Shown one piece after another: positions 3,083 through 35,765 of a stretch of DNA of 37,159 nucleotides. Position 1 is the stretch's first letter; the number at the start of each line of letters is the position of its first letter. The stretch spans positions 1 through 37,159 of the forward strand of contig JAQXFL010000033.1 of NCBI GenBank assembly GCA_029250345.1, written 5' to 3'. Both the position numbers and the translations under genes were made by a program. The notes beneath the pieces are model-generated. The model worked only from the letters and a program-made list of their open reading frames with translations, was not told the origin of the DNA and did not search any database. This stretch comes from Candidatus Poseidoniaceae archaeon (GTDB taxonomy: Archaea > Thermoplasmatota > Poseidoniia > Poseidoniales > Poseidoniaceae).

Positions 3083-6000
3083 TCACTTATGCTGTACAAT
3101 TTCGCCTTCTGCGTTCTTGTACCACCATTCATTGGCTTCTTTGTCATGGTACCACCAGTAACCATCAGAGCCCATTACCCAGTCGGTTTCCTCGGTGTTT
3201 GAAGAAGGTGTGTCTTCGCTTACTGCGCCGGTTGCAGCTGCAGCCGTAGCCACTGATTCCGAACCGGTGTCGTCGACAGCGACCTCCTCTGCCTCTTCCT
3301 CTTCGTCTTCGTCTTCATACTCGAACTCAGAGGAGTATTCATCCCAATCGTATTCGGATTTAGAGCCGCGGTTGAGGGTTTTTCGACGAGCCCAAAGAAG
3401 ACCGGTCGTAATGATGGATACGAAGAGTAGCCCCGCTAAACTACCAAGCAATGGGTGAACATCGCCAAAGATTTGCTCTGAGAAAGAAACCTCGCGAGTT
3501 GGCCGGACATCAATGGATGGACCAATCGCACCTGTATCATCTACAATCTGAACTTCGACCCACTGCAAACCAGTTTGTGTAGGATTCCAGTCCGTGGCCA
3601 CCGGGACAATGCCTCCGAGAGGCACCTCAACGGTGACACGCTGTAGATTTGAGCGTTCACCTGTGGCTTGAACTTCTGTGAAAATCACCTCAACTGAGCC
3701 ATCGAGTGTACCCGTATTTTCAACATAGGCAGTGACAATAGAAGTTTGTCCAAGTTCAACTAGATAGCGTGAATACGTTATGGAAGTGCTTTGTAATTCA
3801 AACTCAGGCTTGAGCCATACCATGTCCCAAACAGCGACTGGAGAACCAGGTTCAGCACCGTCAAGACCGAGGACTTCGTTTCCTGCTAGGTCACGGCCAG
3901 CGACATACATGTGCACTGAAAGTCTGTTCTCAAGCATTTCATCGGTAATCTCGCTGAGGTCAAAAGAGCCAACAACTTCGAGCCTTAGACCGGAGAGATC
4001 TGTGCCGAGTAAGTTCAGTGGTTCGACTCCATTACGAAGACGGTCGCCGGTCGCTTTCTCTTCAACCCACCAAACGAGTTCGAGAGAGTCGACGTCCAAT
4101 CCTCCGGCTTCTGACATCAGGATTTTCACTTCATGAGATTCCGGTTCAAGAACCGAGAACGGTCGAGGATTCGAGACTTCTACCGGTTGAGGCCCTGTGC
4201 CGTCCACAATAATCCAGCGCACAGCGTTGTTAAGGTCGGTGGAGTCGATACCTTGACCTTCAAGACATCCCACTTTCCACGTGAGTGGAATGGTTTGGGT
4301 TGTCGATGGTGCTTGCAATGCTACAGACCAAACGCCATCAAGTGAATTGGCTGAAGAAGTGGAACCGGAGAACAAGAGGTCGATTTGGCAATCAAAGTCT
4401 GGAACGGTTCCTGTTTCCGAGAAGACGACGTTTCCTGCGATTTCGAATGGGCTGCTTGGAGCGATTCGAGCACCATCACCGAGCAATGCACCCTGCGAGA
4501 GAATGAGCGTTACGGTTTCTTCTGGAACTTCAAGAGCAGCGGAGAAACGCCATCGATGTTCTGGGAAGGCACGGAATACTTCCTGTCCTGCTCGGTCAAT
4601 CATGCGGATTCCTGGCTCTCTGCGTGTCTCGCCGAGGTCAGGGGTCGTCCAAGCGAGCTTGAAATCAACATTGAGCGTCAAATCGGTTTCGTAAGGGTCT
4701 GCTGGACCGTCGGCGCCAAGCATTTGACAGTCCTCAATCAAGACGTGAGGGCTGGTTGTCGTACAATTTCCAGTCGTAAAATCCCAACGAATCGGTAACG
4801 GGTCACTGCCTTGGTTTGACGCAAGTTCAACGATGACCGTCGTGAGGTCTGAACCGCCGTTTGGTTCGGTGATATCAACATCTAAGGTGTAAGGCATTTG
4901 TGGGTGAAGCCAAGGGTTCTTTCCGTCGGTATATGAATAAGCATTCGGAGCTACACTCGGGGCGCCGTCAACCGCCAACTGGTACATGAACAGGTGCTTA
5001 TCAACAACATCTGAGCCTCCAAACTCCAAAGGATGGCCTGCATCATCTGTGCCGGTCAAATAAACCGAAACTTTCTGCCCTAGACTGCCTCCGGTATCAT
5101 CCATCATGAACGTGTACTGCCCAATCAGTGGGCTCAAATCGTTCGGAGTGAACAGCGACATAGGCTGGTACTCGCCCTCATCTGGCCACTGGTTTGAATT
5201 GGCATCATCGAACCATTCTCGCCATACCATGGCTTGAATATTGGTTGGGAGAATTGGTTGGTCCGAAATCTGGATTTGGACCGTTTGAGTCGTTGACGGC
5301 ATACGATGGTCGTAGCGGTCCATGTTGACCTCGAGCACTCGCGGAGAGATGGTGTCAATGTGGAACGTTCGCTCAAGAGAGGTGAAGTCCGGATGGACCG
5401 AACCGTTTTCTGAGGTAAGTTCGATGCGCCATGTCAAAGGCCCGAAGGTGAACGGAACCGTGTCCTGATAGTTCCAAGTGTTCTCATCCAATGTTGTTGT
5501 GTTGGCAACCAGAACATCACCTCTGTAAAGCGAAAGCATTCCTTCTCCGTCCATGAAAGCGTCAATCGTAGAGACATTTTCGAATCCGACAAAGGCAGAG
5601 ATGTTGAGTTTAGTGTACGGAAGAAGGTAGTAATCCGATGAACCCAAAATGAGGTTTTCATCAGCGTTCGTGAAGGTCATAATGTTCAGTGTCAAATCAT
5701 TCTCATAGGCTTGGTTGCCGAAAACGCCGTATGTGAAAGTACTCGGCATGGAATACACGGTATTCGAAAGCTGGAGCCGTGTCGTTATTTTCATGGTATC
5801 CGTATCGTCCCATAACGGTAAAATCCGGAATTTTACATCGACGAGAACACTCGTGCCGGTTTGATTGAACGAGATTGACTCCGTTGGATGCAGTTCTATC
5901 AACTCAAAATCACCGGTTCCAAACGGTGTTGCCCCTGAGACTGGAACGGTCCACGTTGCCTGGTGATCATCATCAAGAACATCGAGGCGGATGGAACTCG

Positions 6001-9000
6001 GAGCAACTCCAATCACCGAGTACGACATACTGATTGTTCTCCATCGTTGACTTGGTGTGAGAACATCCACTTCAGGGTCAATGGTAGCGGTGTTCAAAAC
6101 AACGACTGCCGAGGAATTGAGACCGAGAACTTCAACGGTAAGACCGCCCTTTTGAGTAGAGGTGAGAGGCAATGGAATCTCATGCATACCGCCGACCAAA
6201 GGCAGCAATTTTCTGGCATCGTTGAGGTTGAGTACAAAAGTGGAATCGGACTCAAATGTTTGTGATGCCTGAGCGGAATAGGTGACCGAGAGACCGCTAA
6301 AATCGACGGTCGATGACGCATAGACTTCAATGTCGACTTCAACAAATCTTGTACCGAGATGATTCAAGCCGCCCTGGCCAGCAATCGATTGCTCGATGTT
6401 ATCACGAGTCGTCTGGTTGAGTTCAACATGCATAAGCGAAGTTTCATTGATCGTTTCAGATGCAAGAATCTGTGACTGATACAGCATGGTATAGCCGGTA
6501 ATAGAGGAATCAGCGTCCGTAACACCAAACGAGAAAGAGTGGAGTTCCGATAGCGGTACGAGGATTTTGGTTGTTGCATATCCTGAAGAGCCAACCGTTT
6601 CTGAAATGCTCTTGTTACCGTTTGAGAAAACGTCCTGCCAGCCCCAAGTACCGATGGTTGAGAAATCAGCACCCCACTCAAAGTCACCGTCATCGTTGAA
6701 ATCAAACCGTGGGTTGCTTGCGACTTCCCCGTAGTGAACACGGGTCTCAAACGATTCAACAGTCCAATATGCCAAGCCTGAATTCAACGGAACCAAACGG
6801 AACTGAAGCTCATACATTGGAGCCGATGAAGAAACATCGAAAGCACCCATGTTTGCCACAACCGTCCAAGATGCATTTGTTGTATCCCACATCTGGAGTT
6901 CGACATTGGTTCCTGTGACGCTACCGGTGACTCGTGATGTTGGTGCCACCAGTTGTCGAGAATCCATAGTTACGGAACAAGTAGAATCTCCTCGGTAGCC
7001 GTCAATATCGATTCCGGTGACGACGACTGTTGCGTTTTGCGCACCACCAGTCACATTCACCTCATCACCAATGGAATACAATTGCCCACCGTCTTGAACG
7101 AGAGGAGAAAGGAGTTCTCCGCCCCAGTTCCGTACAGCTTGTACCGTAAACATTCCACCGGTTCCTCCAGACACAGTAATTTGGTCGCCCACTGAATATC
7201 CCGAGCCTCGGCCAACAATCGACACTGAAGTTAGATTGCCACCAAGAGCGTAGACTGAATCGATTTCAATACGAGCGTTGAAATCTCCTCCCGAGAGAGT
7301 AATGAGGTCGTTCACCGCATACCCCGAGGCGTTGTTGAGGATGGTGTAACCTGTGATGGTGCCGCCTTGCCGGTTCGTATCGAGCACGGTGAAGTTTGCA
7401 TTGCTGTCCCCACCTGGTATGTTGAGAGTATCACCAACATCGTAATTGAGGCCAGGTGTACTGAATGAAATCGACGTGATTCCGCCACCGGTTTCAGTGA
7501 GACCAGTCGTGTAAAAGTAAGCGTCTGCGTCCCCACCTGAGATGTAGAGTTTATCGTAGAAACCGTAACCTGAACCGCCGCTAATGATGCTAATTGAAGT
7601 GATTGCGCCACCAGAAACTGAATCAATACTGACGCGCAGACCCGAGCCGGAACCGCCGCTCGTGAAAGCAAAACTCGTTGTCGAATAATTCGTTCCGCCG
7701 TTAAGGAGTGAATAACTGGTCGGAATTCCAGTGATAATCGGGCTGGCGGTATAGTCGATTTTCAAACCGCTACCGTTGCCGCCGCTCAATGCGACGTCGT
7801 TCGAGGAAGTGTATCCTGAACCGCCGTTCAACGAGGTGTAGAGTGATACAGCACCAGAACCGGTGATTGGCGTAGCTGTCGTCTGAATCTGTAGACCCGA
7901 ACCACTTCCGCCGTTTGGTGAGATGGTCTGTGAAGTGTATCCTGTGCCTCCCGCTGAAAGGCTTGAACCGTCCACGATACCTGACGTAACGGGGGTGGCA
8001 ACCGTAGCCACTGTGAGGCCAGTTCCGTTACCACCGCTGGTCGCTCTACCGTTACTGGTATTGGTGTAAAGGGAACCAACAGAAGTGACGCTCGAGAGTG
8101 AGTCAACTTCGTCTAAAATGTAAGGCAATGGACTGGTTTGAACGGTTAAACCGGTGCCGTGTGAACTGGTTGTTGCGACCGAGGACGAAGCAAGGTAAGC
8201 CCACCCCGGATCGAGAACATCGACTGTTGTTGCGGAGCCGTATGCGGTGAATTGGCCGTTCGCACCGCACATCGACTCAGAATTTCCGAGGTTTTGCCAA
8301 TCGGAATACCTTGTCGACATTGTCCCATCACCCGTCAGCGAATAGACGAGCGGAAGTATTCCATCCGAACCAGCCGAAAGAGAGAGCCGAATGCGTATCG
8401 AATCATGGACCGACTCATCGATGAGGTGGAGCGGTACTGTGAATGTATTCGAGCCAGTGAAGCCGGGAATTTCAACACCGTTGTCATCGAGTACCGTCCA
8501 GTTGAGTGATGCACCCGCAGGTACATAGGCGTCAATATTCATCGGTGCATAGATCGTTTTTGCCACTTGGAAGGAAGACGAGGAAGACCAACCAATACTC
8601 GGACTTGTCCAGTTCGAAACCGGTGGGGAAGCGATGCGAACATCGTCAAAGAACCAGTAATCATAGGTCGAACCTGTGCCGCCGGTTTGCAACATACGGA
8701 TTTGGGTGTTTGAATGCAATGCTGCTGCGGGCAATGTCCCAGTCCACTGCAGTGGAGGTTGATTGAAGGTGCTGCCGGACCATGTTTGGAGCGTTGTCCA
8801 AGTGCCTGAAGCGGTTTTGTATCGCAGTTGAAGGTCTTCGTTGGTGTCCGGTTCTTCACCGCAACTGGAAGTACCTTGTCGAATCCAAATATGAATAGGA
8901 ACAGCGTTTGCACCTGCCAAATTGATGGTTGGAGAGGTTGCGTGTTCAGAAGATGAGGCAGAAGGTGCTTGTGTTTTGATTGAACCTCCCGAGGTGCCGT

Positions 9001-9478
9001 TGACACCGCATGCGTTCGTGTAAAGGCCGACATAAGAGGAACTGGACACCGTCCAACCCTGTAGCCCGTTGTTGAAATCCCAGAGAGTGCCTGCGCGTGA
9101 ACCGGTCAAGAAGCCGTCAGCGTCAACAGTTGCACCATCATTGACTGCATCACTGTGACCCCATGCAGAAGTACCACTCCACACTAAGCCGTTTGATGAG
9201 GGCTCGATTCCGGGGGACATTGAGAGATGAACATCAGTCACAGGTTGGGATGAAGGGACGTCGAGCGTCAACTCATCACTGTAGAGGCCAGAGCCGTCTA
9301 AAAACAACTGTGAGGCTGGGTCACCACCGGATGCCAACGAAACCGAAGATTCTCTGAGTTCACCGGATGTATCCGTTTCTGCAGTAGATGCAAGAAATGT
9401 ACTCAGTGGCCCGGTCAACATCAAGAACAGTATGAGAAAACATAGCAATTTTAACCGATACCCTGCCGACATCAACAT
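3083..9478 (-). CDS. Giant secreted, C-terminally membrane-anchored repeat protein (about 2130 aa)
   Basis: Signal-peptide-like N-terminus MLMSAGYRLKLLCFLILFLMLTGPLS, MAM/jelly-roll-like LWDFNNGLQGWTV..., glycine-rich repeats, Ig-like segments, C-terminal TM LLGSLAGLLFVSIITTGLLWARRK, acidic linker and W/Y-rich tail. Confidence 0.9.
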   Translation of the reverse strand: MLMSAGYRLKLLCFLILFLMLTGPLSTFLASTAETDTSGELRESSVSLASGGDPASQLFLDGSGLYSDELTLDVPSSQPVTDVHLSMSPGIEPSSNGLVWSGTSAWGHSDAVNDGATVDADGFLTGSRAGTLWDFNNGLQGWTVSSSSYVGLYTNACGVNGTSGGSIKTQAPSASSSEHATSPTINLAGANAVPIHIWIRQGTSSCGEEPDTNEDLQLRYKTASGTWTTLQTWSGSTFNQPPLQWTGTLPAAALHSNTQIRMLQTGGTGSTYDYWFFDDVRIASPPVSNWTSPSIGWSSSSSFQVAKTIYAPMNIDAYVPAGASLNWTVLDDNGVEIPGFTGSNTFTVPLHLIDESVHDSIRIRLSLSAGSDGILPLVYSLTGDGTMSTRYSDWQNLGNSESMCGANGQFTAYGSATTVDVLDPGWAYLASSSVATTSSHGTGLTVQTSPLPYILDEVDSLSSVTSVGSLYTNTSNGRATSGGNGTGLTVATVATPVTSGIVDGSSLSAGGTGYTSQTISPNGGSGSGLQIQTTATPITGSGAVSLYTSLNGGSGYTSSNDVALSGGNGSGLKIDYTASPIITGIPTSYSLLNGGTNYSTTSFAFTSGGSGSGLRVSIDSVSGGAITSISIISGGSGYGFYDKLYISGGDADAYFYTTGLTETGGGITSISFSTPGLNYDVGDTLNIPGGDSNANFTVLDTNRQGGTITGYTILNNASGYAVNDLITLSGGDFNARIEIDSVYALGGNLTSVSIVGRGSGYSVGDQITVSGGTGGMFTVQAVRNWGGELLSPLVQDGGQLYSIGDEVNVTGGAQNATVVVTGIDIDGYRGDSTCSVTMDSRQLVAPTSRVTGSVTGTNVELQMWDTTNASWTVVANMGAFDVSSSAPMYELQFRLVPLNSGLAYWTVESFETRVHYGEVASNPRFDFNDDGDFEWGADFSTIGTWGWQDVFSNGNKSISETVGSSGYATTKILVPLSELHSFSFGVTDADSSITGYTMLYQSQILASETINETSLMHVELNQTTRDNIEQSIAGQGGLNHLGTRFVEVDIEVYASSTVDFSGLSVTYSAQASQTFESDSTFVLNLNDARKLLPLVGGMHEIPLPLTSTQKGGLTVEVLGLNSSAVVVLNTATIDPEVDVLTPSQRWRTISMSYSVIGVAPSSIRLDVLDDDHQATWTVPVSGATPFGTGDFELIELHPTESISFNQTGTSVLVDVKFRILPLWDDTDTMKITTRLQLSNTVYSMPSTFTYGVFGNQAYENDLTLNIMTFTNADENLILGSSDYYLLPYTKLNISAFVGFENVSTIDAFMDGEGMLSLYRGDVLVANTTTLDENTWNYQDTVPFTFGPLTWRIELTSENGSVHPDFTSLERTFHIDTISPRVLEVNMDRYDHRMPSTTQTVQIQISDQPILPTNIQAMVWREWFDDANSNQWPDEGEYQPMSLFTPNDLSPLIGQYTFMMDDTGGSLGQKVSVYLTGTDDAGHPLEFGGSDVVDKHLFMYQLAVDGAPSVAPNAYSYTDGKNPWLHPQMPYTLDVDITEPNGGSDLTTVIVELASNQGSDPLPIRWDFTTGNCTTTSPHVLIEDCQMLGADGPADPYETDLTLNVDFKLAWTTPDLGETRREPGIRMIDRAGQEVFRAFPEHRWRFSAALEVPEETVTLILSQGALLGDGARIAPSSPFEIAGNVVFSETGTVPDFDCQIDLLFSGSTSSANSLDGVWSVALQAPSTTQTIPLTWKVGCLEGQGIDSTDLNNAVRWIIVDGTGPQPVEVSNPRPFSVLEPESHEVKILMSEAGGLDVDSLELVWWVEEKATGDRLRNGVEPLNLLGTDLSGLRLEVVGSFDLSEITDEMLENRLSVHMYVAGRDLAGNEVLGLDGAEPGSPVAVWDMVWLKPEFELQSTSITYSRYLVELGQTSIVTAYVENTGTLDGSVEVIFTEVQATGERSNLQRVTVEVPLGGIVPVATDWNPTQTGLQWVEVQIVDDTGAIGPSIDVRPTREVSFSEQIFGDVHPLLGSLAGLLFVSIITTGLLWARRKTLNRGSKSEYDWDEYSSEFEYEDEDEEEEAEEVAVDDTGSESVATAAAATGAVSEDTPSSNTEETDWVMGSDGYWWYHDKEANEWWYKNAEGEIVQHK
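6995..7620 (-). repeat. Protein-level tandem repeats of about 40 aa, 'GGxITSxSIxxxGxGYxVGDxIxISGGDxNAxFxV' (type B)
   Basis: Consecutive units visible: GGAITSISIISGGSGYGFYDKLYISGGDADAYF / GGGITSISFSTPGLNYDVGDTLNIPGGDSNANF / GGTITGYTILNNASGYAVNDLITLSGGDFNARI / GGNLTSVSIVGRGSGYSVGDQITVSGGTGGMF / GGELLSPLVQDGGQLYSIGDEVNVTGGAQNATV. Confidence 0.85.
7620..8175 (-). repeat. Protein-level tandem repeats 'GGNGSGLxIxxTATPITxG...LxxGGxxYTS' (type A)
   Basis: GGNGTGLTVATVATPVTSG.., GGSGSGLQIQTTATPITGSG.., GGNGSGLKIDYTASPIITG.., GGSGSGLRVSIDSV in series immediately N-terminal to the type B units. Confidence 0.8.
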
Positions 9479-9607
9479 TCCGTAGCGGTCTAACGATTTG
9501 AAACATACCCAAGCCCAATCCGGAGCCACTGCTGCGAATCAGTGGAAAAGGAAACTCCTCATGCCACCTTTGAGAAGGGTGAGGTTCAAGACAAAAAGGC
9601 TTCTCGC

Positions 9608-14736: not shown

Positions 14737-16617
14737 TCATTCAACGCTGACACAGCGTTCATGAAGGCATTCTGGCGGAGTAAAATAGATTTTATCGGCA
14801 GGTACGAATGTATCCATTTGGAGCGTCGAAGATTCTCCTTCTTGGACAAACACAACAGATGAGGTACTTGCTGGCAAGTAATCTTCACCCGTTGAAAGTA
14901 AACTCAATCGAAGCGTATGGCCTTCAAGAATTTCCGCATCGAGAGGCATGAACTCCATCTTCGCATTGATCGTTTCAACAACAGGCGTCCATGATTGAAT
15001 ATCGTCGCCGCCTGCATGGTATCGCAAATCCATAATGGCATGACCGATGTGAATGCAGTTATCCGAATCATCACATTCTTCGAGCAGCGCATACAGTTGT
15101 CCCCCGACGGATGCAGTGGTAACATCAACGTGCAGTCGAGGTGTGCCTGCAACATACATGGTTTCTGAAAGTGGAGCAGATTGCCAAACCGGTCCAGTGT
15201 TCGCATCGGGGAATACAGTCGTCCCGCCTCCTACGCTCTCCATTGAACCGCCTAAATCGAAGGTGATTTCGACCGTGTCGCTTGGAGGATACCTGTCCTC
15301 GAGTCTCCATGAGCCTTGGTTGGACTGAATCTCGATGTAAAGGCCCGGTTGTTCACCGACATCTCGCAAATAGAAATCAAACCATTCGAGTAAATCTTGC
15401 ATCCAGTCATAGCGAATCATTTCGGGGAACGCTTCACCACCACGGCCACCTAAGTCCGATCGGTCATCCAACTGAACTGGGCGGTCTGGATAGTCGTGGT
15501 CCCACTGGCCAAACAACCCCTTTGCATCGATTCCAGCGTCTTTGAGTGCATTCATCGTCGGCACCGCCATGTGCGGGTCAACGTTCCAATCATGCATACC
15601 TTGGATCAGGTAAACACTGCCTTGGTAATTGTCCAAGACCCGTTCAAGGAAGTATCGTTCAGCCCAGTAATCACCGGCCACTTCCGAGCCGAACATGTAC
15701 GCAGTAACGCCTGTACCTGGGCCGATGATGTAATCCGGACAGAGGTTTTGATAATCCTCTTCATCGCCATCCAACCCGTAAGAACCGTAAACGCCATTAT
15801 GCATAATCGGAGCTCTCGCTTCGGAAGAACCGTTGCGCCACATCAATTCCTTGACACCAATCAATCCAGAAATTGGTACAATGGTCTTGAGATAATCGTG
15901 CTCAGCACCGAACATAGCTGCTTGCCAAGGTGTACTTCCATCGTATGATTTTCCAATCATTCCGACAGCGCCGTTCGACCAATTTTGCTCTGCGAGCCAT
16001 CGCACTGCAGCATCGTTACCAAGTTGCTCAGCATTACCCATCAAATCCATGCAGTGGTTCGAGCGTCCAGTTCCGGAAACTGAGACTTGTGCGAATGCAA
16101 AACCGTGCGGAAGAATTTGGTCGATAATCATCTGACCAAGCCAAGTGCCCGGGACTTCGATGCTTGGTGTCTCAACCGATGCTTCCTGGAAATAAGGTCC
16201 AAATTCTGCAATAACTGGTACTTGAACGCCATCAGGAACATTTGGTCGCCAAACAGCGAGACTGATGACGGCATCATCAGGAGCGGCTCCACCTTCTTCA
16301 ATCGGAAGGGCGTACTCAACAAAATGGTGCGTAGAACTCCATTCATTTTCGGTTGGTAGCAATTCATACGGCCCAACTTCAAGGGCAACCCCGAACTCGC
16401 CATCGGTTTGGTAAGGCAAGGTGTTTCGTTCCCAAACCGGAACACGAAGCGCAGAAAGTTGGTCATCATCTTCGACGATTTCGATAATCGCACCACTGTA
16501 TACTGCAGAAACAAAAAGGAAGACCAAAGAAACGGCAACGGTAGAACTCAACACGATGTTGAACTCAAGCATCGAGCGACCATGATCATCTGAACCGTCT
16601 TGATTCAACTCCTTCAC
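14737..16617 (-). CDS. Secreted or membrane-anchored CocE/NonD (X-Pro dipeptidyl-peptidase S15-like) hydrolase, paralog 1
   Basis: Ser-nucleophile motif [20 protein letters not shown], Asp region [15 protein letters not shown], His region GQWDHDYPDRP; N-terminal TM LEFNIVLSSTVAVSLVFLFVSAVYSG; start GTG 16617 or ATG 16572. Confidence 0.88.
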   Translation of the reverse strand: MKELNQDGSDDHGRSMLEFNIVLSSTVAVSLVFLFVSAVYSGAIIEIVEDDDQLSALRVPVWERNTLPYQTDGEFGVALEVGPYELLPTENEWSSTHHFVEYALPIEEGGAAPDDAVISLAVWRPNVPDGVQVPVIAEFGPYFQEASVETPSIEVPGTWLGQMIIDQILPHGFAFAQVSVSGTGRSNHCMDLMGNAEQLGNDAAVRWLAEQNWSNGAVGMIGKSYDGSTPWQAAMFGAEHDYLKTIVPISGLIGVKELMWRNGSSEARAPIMHNGVYGSYGLDGDEEDYQNLCPDYIIGPGTGVTAYMFGSEVAGDYWAERYFLERVLDNYQGSVYLIQGMHDWNVDPHMAVPTMNALKDAGIDAKGLFGQWDHDYPDRPVQLDDRSDLGGRGGEAFPEMIRYDWMQDLLEWFDFYLRDVGEQPGLYIEIQSNQGSWRLEDRYPPSDTVEITFDLGGSMESVGGGTTVFPDANTGPVWQSAPLSETMYVAGTPRLHVDVTTASVGGQLYALLEECDDSDNCIHIGHAIMDLRYHAGGDDIQSWTPVVETINAKMEFMPLDAEILEGHTLRLSLLSTGEDYLPASTSSVVFVQEGESSTLQMDTFVPADKIYFTPPECLHERCVSVE

Positions 16618-16739: not shown

Positions 16740-18740
16740 ATGTTGCACATGGTTCTCAGTAAACTGCCCGGTGTCGGCGAACGACTGGCACAGAAAATCA
16801 CCGACCACTTCGGTGGAGAAGATGAAGCAATTGCGTCACTAAAATCGGGCGACATTGCCCGCATTGCAGAAATTGACGGCGTGTCGCCAAAAAGGGCGTT
16901 GAATCTTGCCCGAATGGTTGCAGGTCAATCCGGTTCTTTTCTCGCCACGAAAGAAGCGGAGAAACTTCACCGTGCGCTGTTGCAAGATATTGTCTCCTTT
17001 GCATCGTGTGCCGCAACCCGTGAAAGAATGCAACTTTTGATGCCTGTTGAAAATCCTGCGGAACGAAGGCTCAAAGTCAGCCACTCCATGCAATTTCAGC
17101 AGCAAAACAGTGAACGTATGACCACTCTGTCGGGATTGTTCCACAATCTGCGTCAAACTCGATTCGCAAACGAGCGATATGAGCGAGTGGTCGTCAGCAA
17201 GGAACCGTTGGACACCTTCAAGAAATGGTGCAGGGTATTGCAGCCCGGAGAAGGCGAGACATGGAAAGATTATACCGTCTTCAAATCCGTAACATGGATT
17301 GGCTCAGGTGCGCCTGACGAAGCACCGGATGGATGGGTTATCCTGCCAAAAACAGCATCAAGCGAATTGATTCTACCCGAGCGAACAATCGACTGGTTCC
17401 GCCAGAATCTTCGCACTCTAACCGTCGTATCGGACGTTGTGAAGATGGCACGTAATTCGACAGATTCTCATCCCTTCATCGATGAGTTGTTTTCAATTGT
17501 CACTGGCCTTGAACACTTGCCAGAGATTCTTGAAAGTATAGACGACCAAGGTGATCTCGAAATCATTGCTGAAGTGAAAGACACGCTGTGGAAAGTCGCC
17601 AAAGGACTGGAAGGGCAAGTCAACGATGAAGTGGCCCAAGCCATGGATGACGCCAAAATGAACTTGAGCGGTGCAGAACTGCTTGAAGCTCTTTCGGATG
17701 GAGCAGCCTTTCAGAGAAAATTACAGGAAGCAACCAGTGATGTCATCACTGAGGCTATGCAGAAAGCGAAACAATCGATGGTCGAAACATTGGAAGGCAC
17801 AGGAGTCCGATGCCCATACGATATTTTTGCCACTCAATGGCCAGCCAAAATCAACAGGAAAGTCATCGATGAAATTGACCAAGCACTTGAGCAGAAACTC
17901 AAGACTGGAGAGACCGAACACATGCTCATGCTCGCACAGAAACTTGGTCCACTCCGTTCTCGTTGCGAAGATGCGGTCCGTTCTCTTATCGGATTTGACC
18001 AGTGGGTATGCATCGCCCTTTGGGCCAAGGCAAGGAATTGTGTTCTTCCTGAATCTGTAGAACATGGAATCTACATCGAAGAGGGGCGACACCTGTTGCT
18101 CGGCTGCGAACCAGACCCGGTCACCTACGGATTAGGGAACGCCGGTGAAAACGGTGACCAGCAGTCACTTGCACTTCTTACGGGTGCGAATTCAGGTGGT
18201 AAAACCACGCTGCTTGAGCTGCTTGCACACACTTGCATTCTTGCTCACATGGGCCTCCCTGTCCCTGCCAAATCTGCACGGGTTGGACAAGTCGAGGCAC
18301 TGCACATTCTTGCGAAAGCCGGTGGGACTCAAAGTGCTGGTGCACTTGAACAAACACTCGTAGAACTCGCCAATGTTGTAAGCGACCCAACTCCGAAACT
18401 GATTCTTGCTGACGAACTGGAAGCCATCACTGAACCTGGCGCTGGCGCTCGTATCATTGCAGGAATGTTGCTTGCTGCGGAAGCCCAAGACGACACGACA
18501 ATGATGCTGGTGACTCACCTTGCACCTTCAATACTCAAGGCTACGGGACGCAACGATTTGAGAGTCGATGGTATTGAGGCCACAGGCTTAGATGCGAATT
18601 TGGAACTGATGGTTGACCGAACACCGAAGCGAAACCACCTTGCCCGATCAACGCCTGAACTTATTGTCAAGCGATTGGTTGAGCGCAGTAAAGGACATGC
18701 CCAAACGCTGTTCCGAGACATTCTCGGCATGTTTGACTGA
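16740..18740 (+). CDS. MutS-family ATPase (MutS2/archaeal MutS5-like) with N-terminal helix-hairpin-helix
   Basis: N-term LSKLPGVGERLAQKITDHFGG...IAEIDGVSPKRALNLARM (two HhH-like units); Walker A LLTGANSGGKTTLLELLAHTCILAHMGLPVPA; ILADELEAITEPGAGARI; no recognisable mismatch-recognition domain I or Smr domain. Confidence 0.85.
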   Translation: MLHMVLSKLPGVGERLAQKITDHFGGEDEAIASLKSGDIARIAEIDGVSPKRALNLARMVAGQSGSFLATKEAEKLHRALLQDIVSFASCAATRERMQLLMPVENPAERRLKVSHSMQFQQQNSERMTTLSGLFHNLRQTRFANERYERVVVSKEPLDTFKKWCRVLQPGEGETWKDYTVFKSVTWIGSGAPDEAPDGWVILPKTASSELILPERTIDWFRQNLRTLTVVSDVVKMARNSTDSHPFIDELFSIVTGLEHLPEILESIDDQGDLEIIAEVKDTLWKVAKGLEGQVNDEVAQAMDDAKMNLSGAELLEALSDGAAFQRKLQEATSDVITEAMQKAKQSMVETLEGTGVRCPYDIFATQWPAKINRKVIDEIDQALEQKLKTGETEHMLMLAQKLGPLRSRCEDAVRSLIGFDQWVCIALWAKARNCVLPESVEHGIYIEEGRHLLLGCEPDPVTYGLGNAGENGDQQSLALLTGANSGGKTTLLELLAHTCILAHMGLPVPAKSARVGQVEALHILAKAGGTQSAGALEQTLVELANVVSDPTPKLILADELEAITEPGAGARIIAGMLLAAEAQDDTTMMLVTHLAPSILKATGRNDLRVDGIEATGLDANLELMVDRTPKRNHLARSTPELIVKRLVERSKGHAQTLFRDILGMFD

Positions 18741-20550
18741 TCAGCACAACCGTGCTGAATCGATTGAATAATCATGCATTGGAGCTTGGAAGAGGTCGGC
18801 ACAAGTCCGATTCACCAACGGTAGAGTGAGCGTAGCGCCCGCCCAATTGATTGAATATCCGCCAATAGCACCGGGTGAAGGAACGTAATCCAAACCGGTT
18901 TGCGACATTGTGATTTGGATGGATTCGCCCGCAGAAAGGAAAATATCCATTGGCATGAACTCCATGAGTCCGGTCACCGATACAAACGCACCGAGAGCAA
19001 CATCTCCATCGCGGCCACCGTCAGCGAATCTGAAATCCATGACGGCATGGCCGAGGCGCATTCCTGAGTCGTCGCTCATTTCCAAGAAAGCGTGAGCGCC
19101 GTTGGTTGTATGCGTCGTGATTGGAATGTGGAAAGTTGGCATACCTGCAATGTAGACATCCTCGTCAAATGGACCGTATGAAAGTGTAATCGTTTCGGTC
19201 GTTGTCACCATTGAAGCGCCGCTTGGGTTCATGTCCGCAGCACCGATTTCCATGTAGAAGGTATCCTCAGCCGGATAGGTGGTCTCAAATCTCCAGCCAC
19301 CTCGATTGTCTTGCATTTCAACTCCCAAGGTTGGTGCACGGCCCTCGCCCTTGAGGTACCAGTCGAACCAGTAGAGCATCTCATCGGCCCAATCCCAGCG
19401 AAGAGTGTACGGGTAAGCCTCTGCCCCTTCGCCCGATGGAAGTGCTTCATGGCCGGTTTTACGGTCTGGATAATCGTGGGCCCACTGGCCTGCAAGTGTC
19501 TTGGTTTCGATGCCTGCAGCTTCGACCAATTGGTGCGTCGGGAAAGCCATGTGAGGGTCAACGTTCCAGTCTTGCATACCTTGTATGATGTAGATTGAAC
19601 CTTGATAGTTCTCAACGACTCGATCGAGGAAGGAGCGTTCAGTCCAATAGGTATTGCCTGCATAGTCAACCATTCCGCCGGAAAGATATGCGGCAGGTCC
19701 GTTAAGATAACCTTCAAGATATCCTTCACAGAGGTTCTCTGGGTCTTCTGCATCGCCATCGACGCCAAAGGAGCCGTAAACACCGTTGTGCATAATCATA
19801 CCACGGGCCTCCATACTACCGTTGCGCCACATGAGTTCGTGAACACCAATAAGTCCAGACATTGGAACAATGGTGGCCAAATGCGGATTGCCAAACGTTG
19901 CTGCTTGCCAAGGCGTGGAGCCGTCGTATGACTTTCCAATCATTCCGACTTTGCCGTTGGACCATGGCTGCGTTCCGAGCCATGTCACTGCTGCGTCTAT
20001 GCCGCGTTGTTCATCGGTTCCCATGAGGTCCATGCAATGGTTGGATTCACCGGTCCCAAATACAGAAACTTGTGCAACTCCGTATCCGTGAGGCACGTAG
20101 TTCTCGATGAGGAACTTACCAAGTCGGTCGGCTGGAGTGAGAGCGTCGACGTCTCCGTCGTTGTAGTACGGTCCGACTTCAGCAATGACTGGGATTTGAC
20201 ATTCCGCTGAAAGATTTGCAGCAGTCCAGTCGCAGCCATCAATCACAGGCATCCAAAGTCCAAGATGGACTTCAGCGCCGCCGGTCAAGCCGGAGCCTCC
20301 GTCCGCAGCAGTGATGCTTGGAACTGCGACATAGACGGACTGTACCGTATCAATCGGGTATGAGCCGTTTTGAGTCACACGAGAGTAAATGTCTGAATCA
20401 TCGTATTGCATTTGACTGCGATCCCAAGGCTCAGGAAATACATCGTACGACGCTTCTATGCCGCCTTCGTCAATCAATTGTTCGCCGAAACATCCGGACA
20501 AACTGGTTGTCAACATTACGAACAAAATCAGCCACGGGCGGAAGTTCATG
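18741..20550 (-). CDS. CocE/NonD (S15-like) hydrolase lipoprotein, paralog 2
   Basis: Lipobox [73 protein letters not shown]; clear paralog of 14737-16617. Confidence 0.88.
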
Positions 20551-20608
20551 TTACTACGGGACAGGGTATGTTTCTTGAACACACCGGCTGTTTGAATCGG
20601 CTGGTGAA

Positions 20609-20992
20609 TCACTCGGATTCAGTTTCTTGTGCTGCTTTTTGCGCTTCCATTTCGGCACGGACTTCATCCATGTCCAGTTCTCCAAGTTTGACGACCAAGT
20701 CACGTAGAGCATCCTCTGGGAGAGCTCCTGGCTGCATGAAAACGCCGATGCCATCTTTGAAAGCAACCGTTGTTGGTATTGAGCGTATGTTAAACGATTG
20801 AGAGAGCATTGGCTCGGCTTCGGTGTCGATTTTACCGAAAACAACATCCGGGAATTCTTCGGAAACTCGTTCATAGACCGGACCGTAGGCTTTGCACGGC
20901 CCACACCATTCCGCCCAAAAGTCGAGCAGTACGAGTGAATTGTTGTCGATAATGTCGGAAAAGTTAGGTTCGAGAATCTCTACTGTGGCCAT
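20609..20992 (-). CDS. trxA: Thioredoxin
   Basis: [28 protein letters not shown]...[28 protein letters not shown]. Confidence 0.93.
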
Positions 20993-32128: not shown

Positions 32129-32183
32129 GTTCGCCTAAGAGTTTGAGAGAAGTCTTGATGTTCTATTGCGACTGTGGCCCGAC

Positions 32184-35100
32184 ATGGGCACACGGTCGCT
32201 CCGCTTGGCATCTCCTTTGATGCTCGTGGCACTGCTGTGCTTAGCAACAACTCAACCAATGCTTTCACAACCGTTGTTGGACGAGAACGGTTCACCGAAG
32301 TTTTCCTCTGAAAACCCAGGAGTAAGTGATGTGCCAACATGGAAAGTTGGTGACAAATGGATCTACTCGGGAACCTTTGACCCAACAAAATTGGTCACCG
32401 ATTCTGGAGTTCAAGCAACTGTAGGCGAGATTTACGGCGATACTACAGTACAAGTGATGGCCATCACTGAACGGTCTGTCGACAACATGTCTGTCTTGGC
32501 GTATACCCTACAGACTTCGGCGAACTATGACAAATCAGGAGTATCGCTTGAGGGATACAATGGAAACGTGTTCATTACCTTCAAGCAAACTGAATACCTC
32601 AGAGTGAGCGATCTTTCATCAATGCGCAGTGATTTGGAATTGTATATTCGGTTCGTCCCTTACGGGCTTTCGAGCCTCGCCCAAGTTCTTGGCGATATCA
32701 CCATCACGAACACGTACACTCCGGTAAACGAAGTCTATGATTTCCCCATTCGGGCGAATGAACAATGGACGACAACCACAACTGCATCAACCGCTTGGTC
32801 CGGTTCAAGCGACTACATTACACCGTTCCCAGTCCCGACAACCGGAACCAACAGTACCACTTGGGAAGTCACCGATACAGGAAGACCGCGTAACGACTAC
32901 GGACAAACCATCGGCTATGGCGGATGCAACGCTTCCTACGAACTGACTTCAGTGAACAGCAATGGCGAGGCAAGTGGTTACCGTTGGTATTGCCCTGAAG
33001 CGAGGAACTTTGCTTGGCTACACACTGAAGACGATATTGGCTTGGTTATTGATTTCCGTCTCAAACAATATATTCCGCTTGATTCCACTGGAGTCGACCA
33101 GTACACCAATCCCGGAACTCGCGATGAATGCTTGATGGTCGAATTGGAAAGCGAAATCACCGCACTCAATACTCCAGTCGGCGTTTGGGTCAATGCATCT
33201 GCAAGCTGCTTTTCAACGACGAGCGGGATACCTGTTGAGGTCCATCATGAAGCTTCAGGAATTGTACAACTCGCAACTACCGAAAGCAATGGAAGTGCTT
33301 TTTTCGACATTGACATGGGCGATGAAAAAGATGCTTCGGAATCGGCATTTGATTGGGCAAGTCACGGCATCGTCGCAAGGATTCAACCAAGTGCTGCATC
33401 CTCGTTTGGTACATCTGTGGGTTCGACCACAATCACACTTGATGAATACTTGATAGGGCTCGATTTGATTGCGAGCGAGGATTTTGGTAAAGTTCTTCGA
33501 AATCGAAGTGGAGTACGCACTGAATTGAATTCCCTTTCAGGTTGGAATGTATTGCCTGGTGATGAATTGCTTATCGAAGTCGCTGTCCAAAACAGAGGAC
33601 TTTCCTCCAGCACTCCGACGACCATGTCCATAACCCATCCAGACGGGCAGACCTCATCTCACCCTCTTCCTTCACTGGCAACCTATGAGGCTCACAAAGT
33701 GAACTTCACTTGGACTGTCCCGAGCGAGCAAGCGATTGGAATTGTTCCAGTTTCTTGGCAAGCAGACCCGAGTGGTATCAACAGTGCAGATGCGAACTCG
33801 ACCAATAATCAAGCACTCATCTCCATGTTTGTTGGCCGACTGCCAACACCAGTGTTCACCGACCCAATCGCAATGACATTGGAGGAACTGCAACTCACCG
33901 CCGGTGAAAGTTTTGACGAGGACGGAGGTGTTGTGTTCTGCGAATTCAAGATCCCCTACGACGATGGTTCAAAGAACTGGGCATGGGAAACAGTCCCTTC
34001 CGCCTCTTGTGCTGTCAATTGGACATGGACTGACGATGGCAATTATCCAGTTGAAATCACGGTTATTGACGAAGAAAAAGATGAACAAACTGCAGTCATG
34101 AATGTCATCATCGCCAACAGGAATCCAGAAATTCAAATCCTCAGTTCAAGAACCGAGGTGAAAGTAGAACACCCAATTACTCTCTACGCCTTTGCCAACG
34201 ATTCCGATTCGGAAGATGTGTGGCCTGGAGCCGTCGATGTCTACTGGCCAGATACCCTTTGCGATGAAGGATATTACACTCGAGTGTGTACCACGACTGC
34301 TCCGACTGAAGGCTTGCATACTTTTACTGCCGTAGCCACAGATGATGACTACGCAATAACACCTGCCACTATTGAAATCCAATTCTCAAACATAGCGCCT
34401 CACGGAACTTCCATTGCATTGCAGAAAAACAACCAATTCCTCGAAAGTGATGAACAGCAAATCTGGCACTTAGATGAAGATGAAACCATTGTCGTCAAGG
34501 GGCAAGCACTCGATTCAGTTGATGATTTGGAATCTCTGACGCATACATGGTGGCCGGATGGTGAGCAACCGTCATTGATGTATACGTTCAACGGACGAAC
34601 CTCGACCTTCCCCATGCAATGGAACACTGCTGGACTTCACACCATTCGTTTGGAAGTTCGTGACAACGACGGAGAGGCCAGTACGATTGAGGAACGCTGG
34701 ATTAACATTCGAAATGTCCCCCCAGTGATTCAACCGTTGGTCTCCTTGCTCCCAATTGCTGAAGGGCAATCGGTAACGATTGAAGGCAACTCAACCGATA
34801 CCGCAAGCGACATTGATTCTCTTGTCAAATGTTGGGACATCGACCCAGGTATCGACAGCGATGACATCGGAGGTGCTGACGATGATTGCGACATTACGGG
34901 AGATATTCTCACCTATGCATGGAACAGAAGCGGCTCGCATACCATCATCTATCACGTCACAGATGATGACGGGGCACAATCCAGCGAAGTACTTGTCATC
35001 GAAGTGTTGAACATGCCTCCAATCGTGAGATTGCAAAACACCGAATGCGTCGCTTATAGGGAATGCTACCTGAGTGCTGATCGAACCATCGACTCACTGA

Positions 35101-35765
35101 ATGACCTTCCTGGCCTTACCATTGTATGGGATTTGGACATCACTGTCGACAGCAACGGTGACGGTATCAAAGATAACGATGCAGATTTAATCGGCTCTTC
35201 AGTGACCCATACCTTCCGAGATTCGGGTACTGTTCGAGTGAAAGCCATGGCGTGGGATGAAAATCCGGAACGTCCAGGGCAATCGACCATGTCCATCGTT
35301 GTTGCACCACCTGAACGTACATCAATCGAAGAGGTGAGTGCGGCATTCATCGGTGAAGACGCGAATCCTCTTGCGCAAATTGGATTATTGCTTTCAGCAC
35401 TGTTTGTCTTGGCACTCTTGACACGTCGACGGAAGAAGAATTCGTCGGATGACCCATGGCAAAATGCAGAACTCGCTGGTGAAGACCCTGACGAACGTGA
35501 ATTTGAAACTCAGGCACTTCTCGACCAAGTGCAATCTCGACGCCCAGCAACCCCGCCTTCAACTCAAATGTTTTCAACTGGAGAAGAGATTGTTCAAATC
35601 AACGACCCAATACCAACACTTCCTGCAACAGAAGAACCGGCCACTTTACCGCTCATTGAACAAGGCCCAGCAATTCCAGAAGACGGGATTCCTGAAGGAT
35701 GGACTGCGGAACAATGGTCGCATTATGGGCAACAATATCTCGATGCTCAAGCATCTCACCCTTGA
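32184..35765 (+). CDS. Large secreted protein with PKD/Ig-like repeats, C-terminal TM and cytosolic tail; tandem paralog 1
   Basis: Signal MGTRSLRLASPLMLVALLCLATTQPMLS; PKD-like NTAGLHTIRLEVRDNDGEAS; Ca-binding-like DSNGDGIKDNDAD; TM LAQIGLLLSALFVLALLTRRRKK; tail IPEGWTAEQWSHYGQQYLD. Confidence 0.88.
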   Translation: MGTRSLRLASPLMLVALLCLATTQPMLSQPLLDENGSPKFSSENPGVSDVPTWKVGDKWIYSGTFDPTKLVTDSGVQATVGEIYGDTTVQVMAITERSVDNMSVLAYTLQTSANYDKSGVSLEGYNGNVFITFKQTEYLRVSDLSSMRSDLELYIRFVPYGLSSLAQVLGDITITNTYTPVNEVYDFPIRANEQWTTTTTASTAWSGSSDYITPFPVPTTGTNSTTWEVTDTGRPRNDYGQTIGYGGCNASYELTSVNSNGEASGYRWYCPEARNFAWLHTEDDIGLVIDFRLKQYIPLDSTGVDQYTNPGTRDECLMVELESEITALNTPVGVWVNASASCFSTTSGIPVEVHHEASGIVQLATTESNGSAFFDIDMGDEKDASESAFDWASHGIVARIQPSAASSFGTSVGSTTITLDEYLIGLDLIASEDFGKVLRNRSGVRTELNSLSGWNVLPGDELLIEVAVQNRGLSSSTPTTMSITHPDGQTSSHPLPSLATYEAHKVNFTWTVPSEQAIGIVPVSWQADPSGINSADANSTNNQALISMFVGRLPTPVFTDPIAMTLEELQLTAGESFDEDGGVVFCEFKIPYDDGSKNWAWETVPSASCAVNWTWTDDGNYPVEITVIDEEKDEQTAVMNVIIANRNPEIQILSSRTEVKVEHPITLYAFANDSDSEDVWPGAVDVYWPDTLCDEGYYTRVCTTTAPTEGLHTFTAVATDDDYAITPATIEIQFSNIAPHGTSIALQKNNQFLESDEQQIWHLDEDETIVVKGQALDSVDDLESLTHTWWPDGEQPSLMYTFNGRTSTFPMQWNTAGLHTIRLEVRDNDGEASTIEERWINIRNVPPVIQPLVSLLPIAEGQSVTIEGNSTDTASDIDSLVKCWDIDPGIDSDDIGGADDDCDITGDILTYAWNRSGSHTIIYHVTDDDGAQSSEVLVIEVLNMPPIVRLQNTECVAYRECYLSADRTIDSLNDLPGLTIVWDLDITVDSNGDGIKDNDADLIGSSVTHTFRDSGTVRVKAMAWDENPERPGQSTMSIVVAPPERTSIEEVSAAFIGEDANPLAQIGLLLSALFVLALLTRRRKKNSSDDPWQNAELAGEDPDEREFETQALLDQVQSRRPATPPSTQMFSTGEEIVQINDPIPTLPATEEPATLPLIEQGPAIPEDGIPEGWTAEQWSHYGQQYLDAQASHP

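Follow-up and report, generated by a model that had tools for sequence, protein, structure and literature searches.

A recurrent aromatic C-terminal end on a giant Poseidoniales surface protein suggests an undescribed internal docking tag

A giant surface protein encoded on a 37,159 nucleotide contig of a Candidatus Poseidoniaceae archaeon (the window) ends in a compact aromatic block, and related tails on unrelated surface proteins and on a soluble protein suggest that this end is an undescribed internal docking tag. The sequence of the end is conserved, it behaves as a module, it sits at the C-terminus and it is co-distributed with the body of the soluble protein. Its fold and topology are predicted. 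Given this anatomy, we consider it somewhat probable that the aromatic end acts as a C-terminal docking tag in the cytosol. The group concerned, Marine Group II archaea (Poseidoniales), is uncultured and makes up an abundant part of the life in surface ocean waters.

The giant protein has, in order, a signal peptide, a long beta-rich ectodomain, a transmembrane (TM) helix, the residues ARRK, an acidic linker and the aromatic end. The translation of 9529-3083 (-), whose C-terminal region reads ...HPLLGSLAGLLFVSIITTGLLWARRKTLNRGSKSEYDWDEYSSEFEYEDEDEEEEAEEVAVDD...TDWVMGSDGYWWYHDKEANEWWYKNAEGEIVQHK before the stop, bore out the preliminary description of the last four of these elements. TM and signal peptide calls were hydropathy-based throughout. 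The features are as follows:

3083..9529, (-) strand: coding sequence for the giant type-I surface protein (2148 aa when the called GTG start is used)
9380..9472, (-) strand: signal peptide-like N-terminal stretch MSAGYRLKLLCFLILFLMLTGPLSTFLASTA, aa 20-50 (hydropathy scan)
8633..8929, (-) strand: Reelin_subrepeat-B-like ectodomain stretch, aa 201-299 (Pfam PF21471, E 2.9e-6)
3470..4834, (-) strand: TM-proximal ectodomain of all-beta sandwich domains, aa 1566-2020 (AlphaFold, pLDDT 74)
3404..3460, (-) strand: the one C-terminal TM helix, aa 2024-2042 (hydropathy scan)
3380..3391, (-) strand: ARRK, positively charged, on the cytosolic side of the TM (translation, ortholog comparison)
3188..3355, (-) strand: acidic linker, aa 2059-2114, variable in length and weakly conserved (ortholog comparison)
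3086..3187, (-) strand: aromatic C-terminal mini-domain, a predicted beta-meander, aa 2115-2148, 34 aa (orthologs, AlphaFold)

M18 (9478) or M20, directly ahead of the hydrophobic signal sequence, is a likelier start than the GTG. In Foldseek searches the TM-proximal ectodomain matched complement macroglobulin-type domains (E 3e-10) with a global TM-score of only 0.2-0.3. The giant-protein ectodomain was found in 88/88 Poseidoniaceae genomes sampled, and the 20 loci from named genomes belonged to Poseidoniaceae/Poseidoniales or to unclassified Euryarchaeota MAGs. Most relatives share the gene order ileS (divergent), giant gene, NAD synthase and rhodanese, where the contig reaches. Paralogs of the giant protein (L240, which is in the window's own genome on G000:C95, L241 and L242) carry a different, Pro-rich tail, GPYG...SPGENPY[KQ], which is conserved in three genomes. 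Elsewhere in the window, two X-Pro dipeptidyl-peptidase (S15) genes (14737-16617 and 18741-20612, both on the (-) strand) flank a MutS_V/HHH gene at 16740-18740.

The aromatic end was identified in 33 of 36 genomes of the same genus, the window's own included (E 1e-14 to 1e-21), and the three genomes without it are 57-74% complete. Among intact orthologs the end is 68-100% identical to that of the window. The corresponding range is about 50-100% in the ectodomain and 38-100% in the linker, which contains gaps and is mostly 40-58% identical outside the closest relatives; two ortholog rows with masked N read lower (74% identity). The end is the most conserved portion of the protein's cytosolic region, and between near relatives its codons with synonymous vs amino-acid changes numbered 4 vs 0, 6 vs 1 and 12 vs 1. 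These comparisons indicate that the aromatic end is real and selected, and no product of chance. Across genera the fixed positions are W, GxWW, WW and G, as in the ends from g12 (DGVWWWQDPNDSSWWYKDANGEIL), g14 (DGVWWYHDPKDGSWWYRGADG) and g17 (DGRWWWQDKQNNEWWYQDENGN) and in the consensus DxGxWWKxNxEGYWxRLxxDGxWY from g15, g19 and g140. In g13 and g16 the giant protein keeps its TM and ectodomain and terminates after the acidic stretch, so the aromatic end has been lost in both genera. A viral or plasmid origin of the window-type end was considered and rejected, as no relatives were found there.

Related ends were sought in G003, a near-complete relative of about 2.05 Mb in which a simple codon-score script called 1274 genes, 101 of them single-TM type-I candidates by hydropathy. 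At least three Trp residues in the last 35 aa were present in 20 of 69 long-tailed single-TM proteins vs 51 of 1134 other proteins (Fisher p 2e-10). Nine of the G003 ends, referred to here as class A, follow the pattern DGxEWxExP-xGSGxWWYRxxxTGxWxxW or the shorter VDEDGxEWxEDEDGxWWYRxxxxxxW. Leave-one-out HMM searches recovered eight of these nine members, the exception being the window-type end (E 9). However, hhalign aligned the window tail with class A across 16 columns at a probability of 86% (E 5e-6), whereas reversed controls reached 1-3%, and the window end has the class A placement at the extreme C-terminus behind a single TM. By this comparison, the window-type end is probably a divergent member of class A that is only distantly like its core.

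Most carrier genomes have 3-11 copies of class A. In all 46 distinct genes the motif ends 0-4 residues before the stop (0-1 residue in 45). The preliminary description asked whether such ends always follow a C-terminal TM; this held for the majority, 31 of the 46, and did not hold for ten genes that make up one soluble family or for five with no TM within the sequence examined; the end is thus neither mainly a feature of soluble proteins nor poorly conserved among orthologs. Lys and Arg residues average 1.3 after the TM vs 0.3 before it, and this charge pattern, together with the related end on a soluble protein that has no signal peptide, upholds the earlier placement of the tail in the cytosol. 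Class A proteins mostly have ectodomains that are unrelated in sequence and contain different adhesion-type domains (FG-GAP, CBM96, TIG, TSP3, C-type lectin and propeller), which argues that the end behaves as a module. Judged from sequence, class A, with the window end included, would be an undescribed and wider Poseidoniales family of C-terminal aromatic mini-domains; the open-access literature did not describe an end of this type, which is not proof of absence.

Class A occurs in every Poseidoniaceae genus sampled and in the Thalassarchaeaceae genera g5, g7, g9 and g21, with one marginal match in g3. The genome-wide search covered the Thermoplasmatota at phylum level; among its 293 genomes a single match fell outside the order, and that one was at chance level (7e-4). 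Because most of the genomes are MAGs, 57-97% complete, an absence carries limited weight. Archaellin genes lie about 14-17 kb from the giant gene in many Poseidoniaceae genomes (e.g., at about 533 and 550 kb of G003:C1). A link between class A and the archaellum was rejected since the two do not occur together in Thalassarchaeaceae: archaellin is present without class A in g4 and g20, and g7 has class A with archaellin not found.

The soluble class A protein has 236 aa in G003 (C7:144197-144907) and is on contig C187 of the window's own genome. It has neither a TM nor a signal peptide by hydropathy, and its N-terminus is conserved, basic and rich in glycine and hydrophobic residues (M-A-K-K-(K)-G-G-F-G-R-F-L-G); the protein is probably membrane-peripheral. 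Its C-terminus is a class A end in each of the 20 genomes checked, which represent both families. A search with its tag-free body found it in every Poseidoniaceae genus of the sample and in g5, g7, g9 and g21 of the Thalassarchaeaceae, and in none of g2, g3, g4, g6, g8, g10 and g20. Two class A genomes per comparison did not have the soluble protein (e.g., G074 and G051), as expected from genome incompleteness. The class A searches include the soluble protein's own tag, and carrier genomes have further copies. Should the four Thalassarchaeaceae genera prove to be a clade, this co-distribution may represent a single ancestral gain or loss. In 10 of 10 loci compared (e.g., L143:3352-4104 (-) and L143:4197-4904 (+)), the gene for the soluble protein and a Prok-JAB gene are arranged head to head. 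The JAB gene was rejected as a partner because it occurs almost throughout the order, also in genera that lack class A. The body of the soluble protein is, in contrast, confined to class A genera, making it the best candidate partner.

Class A was not the only recurrent tail type. The window has a second surface protein with a different end, class B:

32166..35765, (+) strand: second type-I surface protein with a PKD/CARDB ectodomain and the class B end GPAIPEDGIPEGWTAEQWSHYGQQYLDAQASHP (tail 35664-35762)

The class B consensus is P-L/I-PxxGLPxGWTxEQWxxYGxxW/YL, and class B was identified in 113 of 113 Poseidoniales genomes at 1-12 copies each; the tail had no match in Pfam or NCBIfam. The possibility that class A reads the Pro-rich class B tails was rejected, as class B and its P-L/I-P stretch also occur in genera without class A, and this persistence indicates that class B is independent of class A. 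Two other kinds of tail were seen on single-TM proteins of G003: three (C3:174116, C7:5770 and C2:168798) have a third recurrent end, YxxxLIAQGYxxxxAxxYAxQYY, and in four surface proteins (C7:87073, C7:119572, C1:589963 and C12:6277) the cytosolic tail ends in a CxxC zinc-ribbon-like sequence.

We propose that the 34 aa mini-domain at the C-terminus of the single-pass surface protein is held inside the cell on a flexible acidic linker that would serve as a tether. Class A tags would bind a common cytosolic surface, either the soluble protein itself or a receptor shared by it and the membrane proteins, and binding could thereby cluster or position diverse adhesin-like surface proteins or couple them to the cell interior. 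The ectodomain would be functional without the tag, which fits the retention of the giant protein in g13 and g16 after the tag was lost. A broader speculation, which we offer tentatively and regard as possible and no better than that, is that the surface proteins of Poseidoniales are labelled at their inner ends by a limited repertoire of C-terminal tags in the cytosol (class A, the GWTxEQW end of class B and others). Together these would form a sorting or anchoring code for the cell surface that acts from the inside and is recognised by cytosolic partners, the soluble class A protein among them.

AlphaFold, run on 19 orthologous ends, gave a disordered lead-in and a confident block (pLDDT 85-87) with strands at model residues 18-19, 25-29, 34-38 and 44-47. 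The aromatic end is accordingly modelled as a single beta-meander mini-domain with W, GxWWY, xWW(Y) and GxIV on successive strands. The preliminary description had read the W/Y repeats as two tandem units; with one meander in the model, these units are better seen as adjacent strands of a single fold, and the tandem reading is not supported. Such a meander has edge strands, and membrane and soluble proteins bear the same kind of tag, both of which would suit mini-domains that bind one another, for instance along their edges as propeller blades do, and gather their carriers into clusters without a separate receptor. The nearest PDB folds were single propeller blades; those of virginiamycin B lyase ranked best (E 0.56, rmsd 1.6 over 31 columns), and a designed propeller stood further down the list (E 4.3). 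However, none of these Foldseek matches is significant, and for the small C-terminal SHOCT domain, also a proposed oligomeriser, the authors' first experiments were unsupportive (PMC3581485). We view self-association as rather unlikely.

It is also unlikely, in our estimation, that the compact end is a cap with no dedicated partner, one that keeps cytosolic proteases off the disordered acidic tail or marks the full-length protein. The strict placement of class A at the extreme C-terminus and the constant Prok-JAB neighbour of the soluble gene would fit a role in stability or quality control. However, a generic cap would not need a surface-type Trp/Tyr pattern that hardly varies within the order, many tails finish without any such fold, and the JAB gene is found where class A is not.

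The position of the end directly behind a stop-transfer TM raised the idea that its folding stops or times translocation, as a signal for membrane insertion or export. This we think very unlikely, as the g13 and g16 orthologs without the end keep their TM and ectodomain, many type-I proteins of the same proteome have short tails, and a soluble protein bears the end. We find it hardly credible that the C-terminus is outside the cell and that the end is a choline-binding-type repeat which binds glycan or the wall there: choline-binding autolysins were the top PDB profile matches (LytA 4iwt, E 7e-5 summed over repeats), but single repeats were insignificant (best i-E 0.5), the Pfam choline-binding models reached only E 0.077-0.12 in 2-4 of 12 members, short of the curated cut-off, and a single C-terminal copy behind a TM and ARRK, with a soluble member lacking a signal peptide, places the end inside.

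Returning to the docking tag as our preferred interpretation, a lineage-restricted recurrent cytosolic end and a co-distributed soluble carrier supply named genes and a named partner candidate, and with these the question of how the surface is connected to the interior in these archaea becomes testable by expression.

Several known systems invite comparison. The resemblance to WW or OCRE repeats that had been suggested loosely was not sustained: the window end and its orthologs matched nothing in Pfam at E<=10, neither WW nor OCRE, PDB profile searches returned no WW or OCRE chain, no WW domain was among the best 50 Foldseek matches, and the WWY units are spaced by 10 residues, not the 8 of OCRE. 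The WW domain, a small aromatic antiparallel sheet, may be alike in kind and differs in spacing; the meander has three longer strands and a short one. Short Trp-rich cytosolic modules such as DUF2510 and GYF_2 are found in bacterial membrane proteins, and we take the g18 ortholog end, QWTDEKGYTWRMEGDNTPKWWDGTSWKDV, to look like these. Nevertheless, no scanned end matched any Pfam family, DUF2510, GYF_2 and SHOCT included, the aromatic end likewise had no NCBIfam match, and the open-access literature on DUF2510/GYF_2 and on Poseidoniales surface tails offered nothing useful. With Choline_bind_1 and Choline_bind_4 the end shares short beta-hairpins, a GxWYY..G pattern and weak profile similarity, although choline- and cell-wall-binding repeats are extracellular and tandem and the aromatic end is single, terminal and cytosolic. 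The closest parallel in behaviour is SHOCT, which is short, mostly C-terminal, present on many different architectures and unsettled in function (PMC3581485). The aromatic end and class A are likewise short, C-terminal, attached to multiple architectures and of unsettled function, and they differ from SHOCT in being a Trp-rich, predicted beta-meander found, among the genomes searched, only in Poseidoniales.
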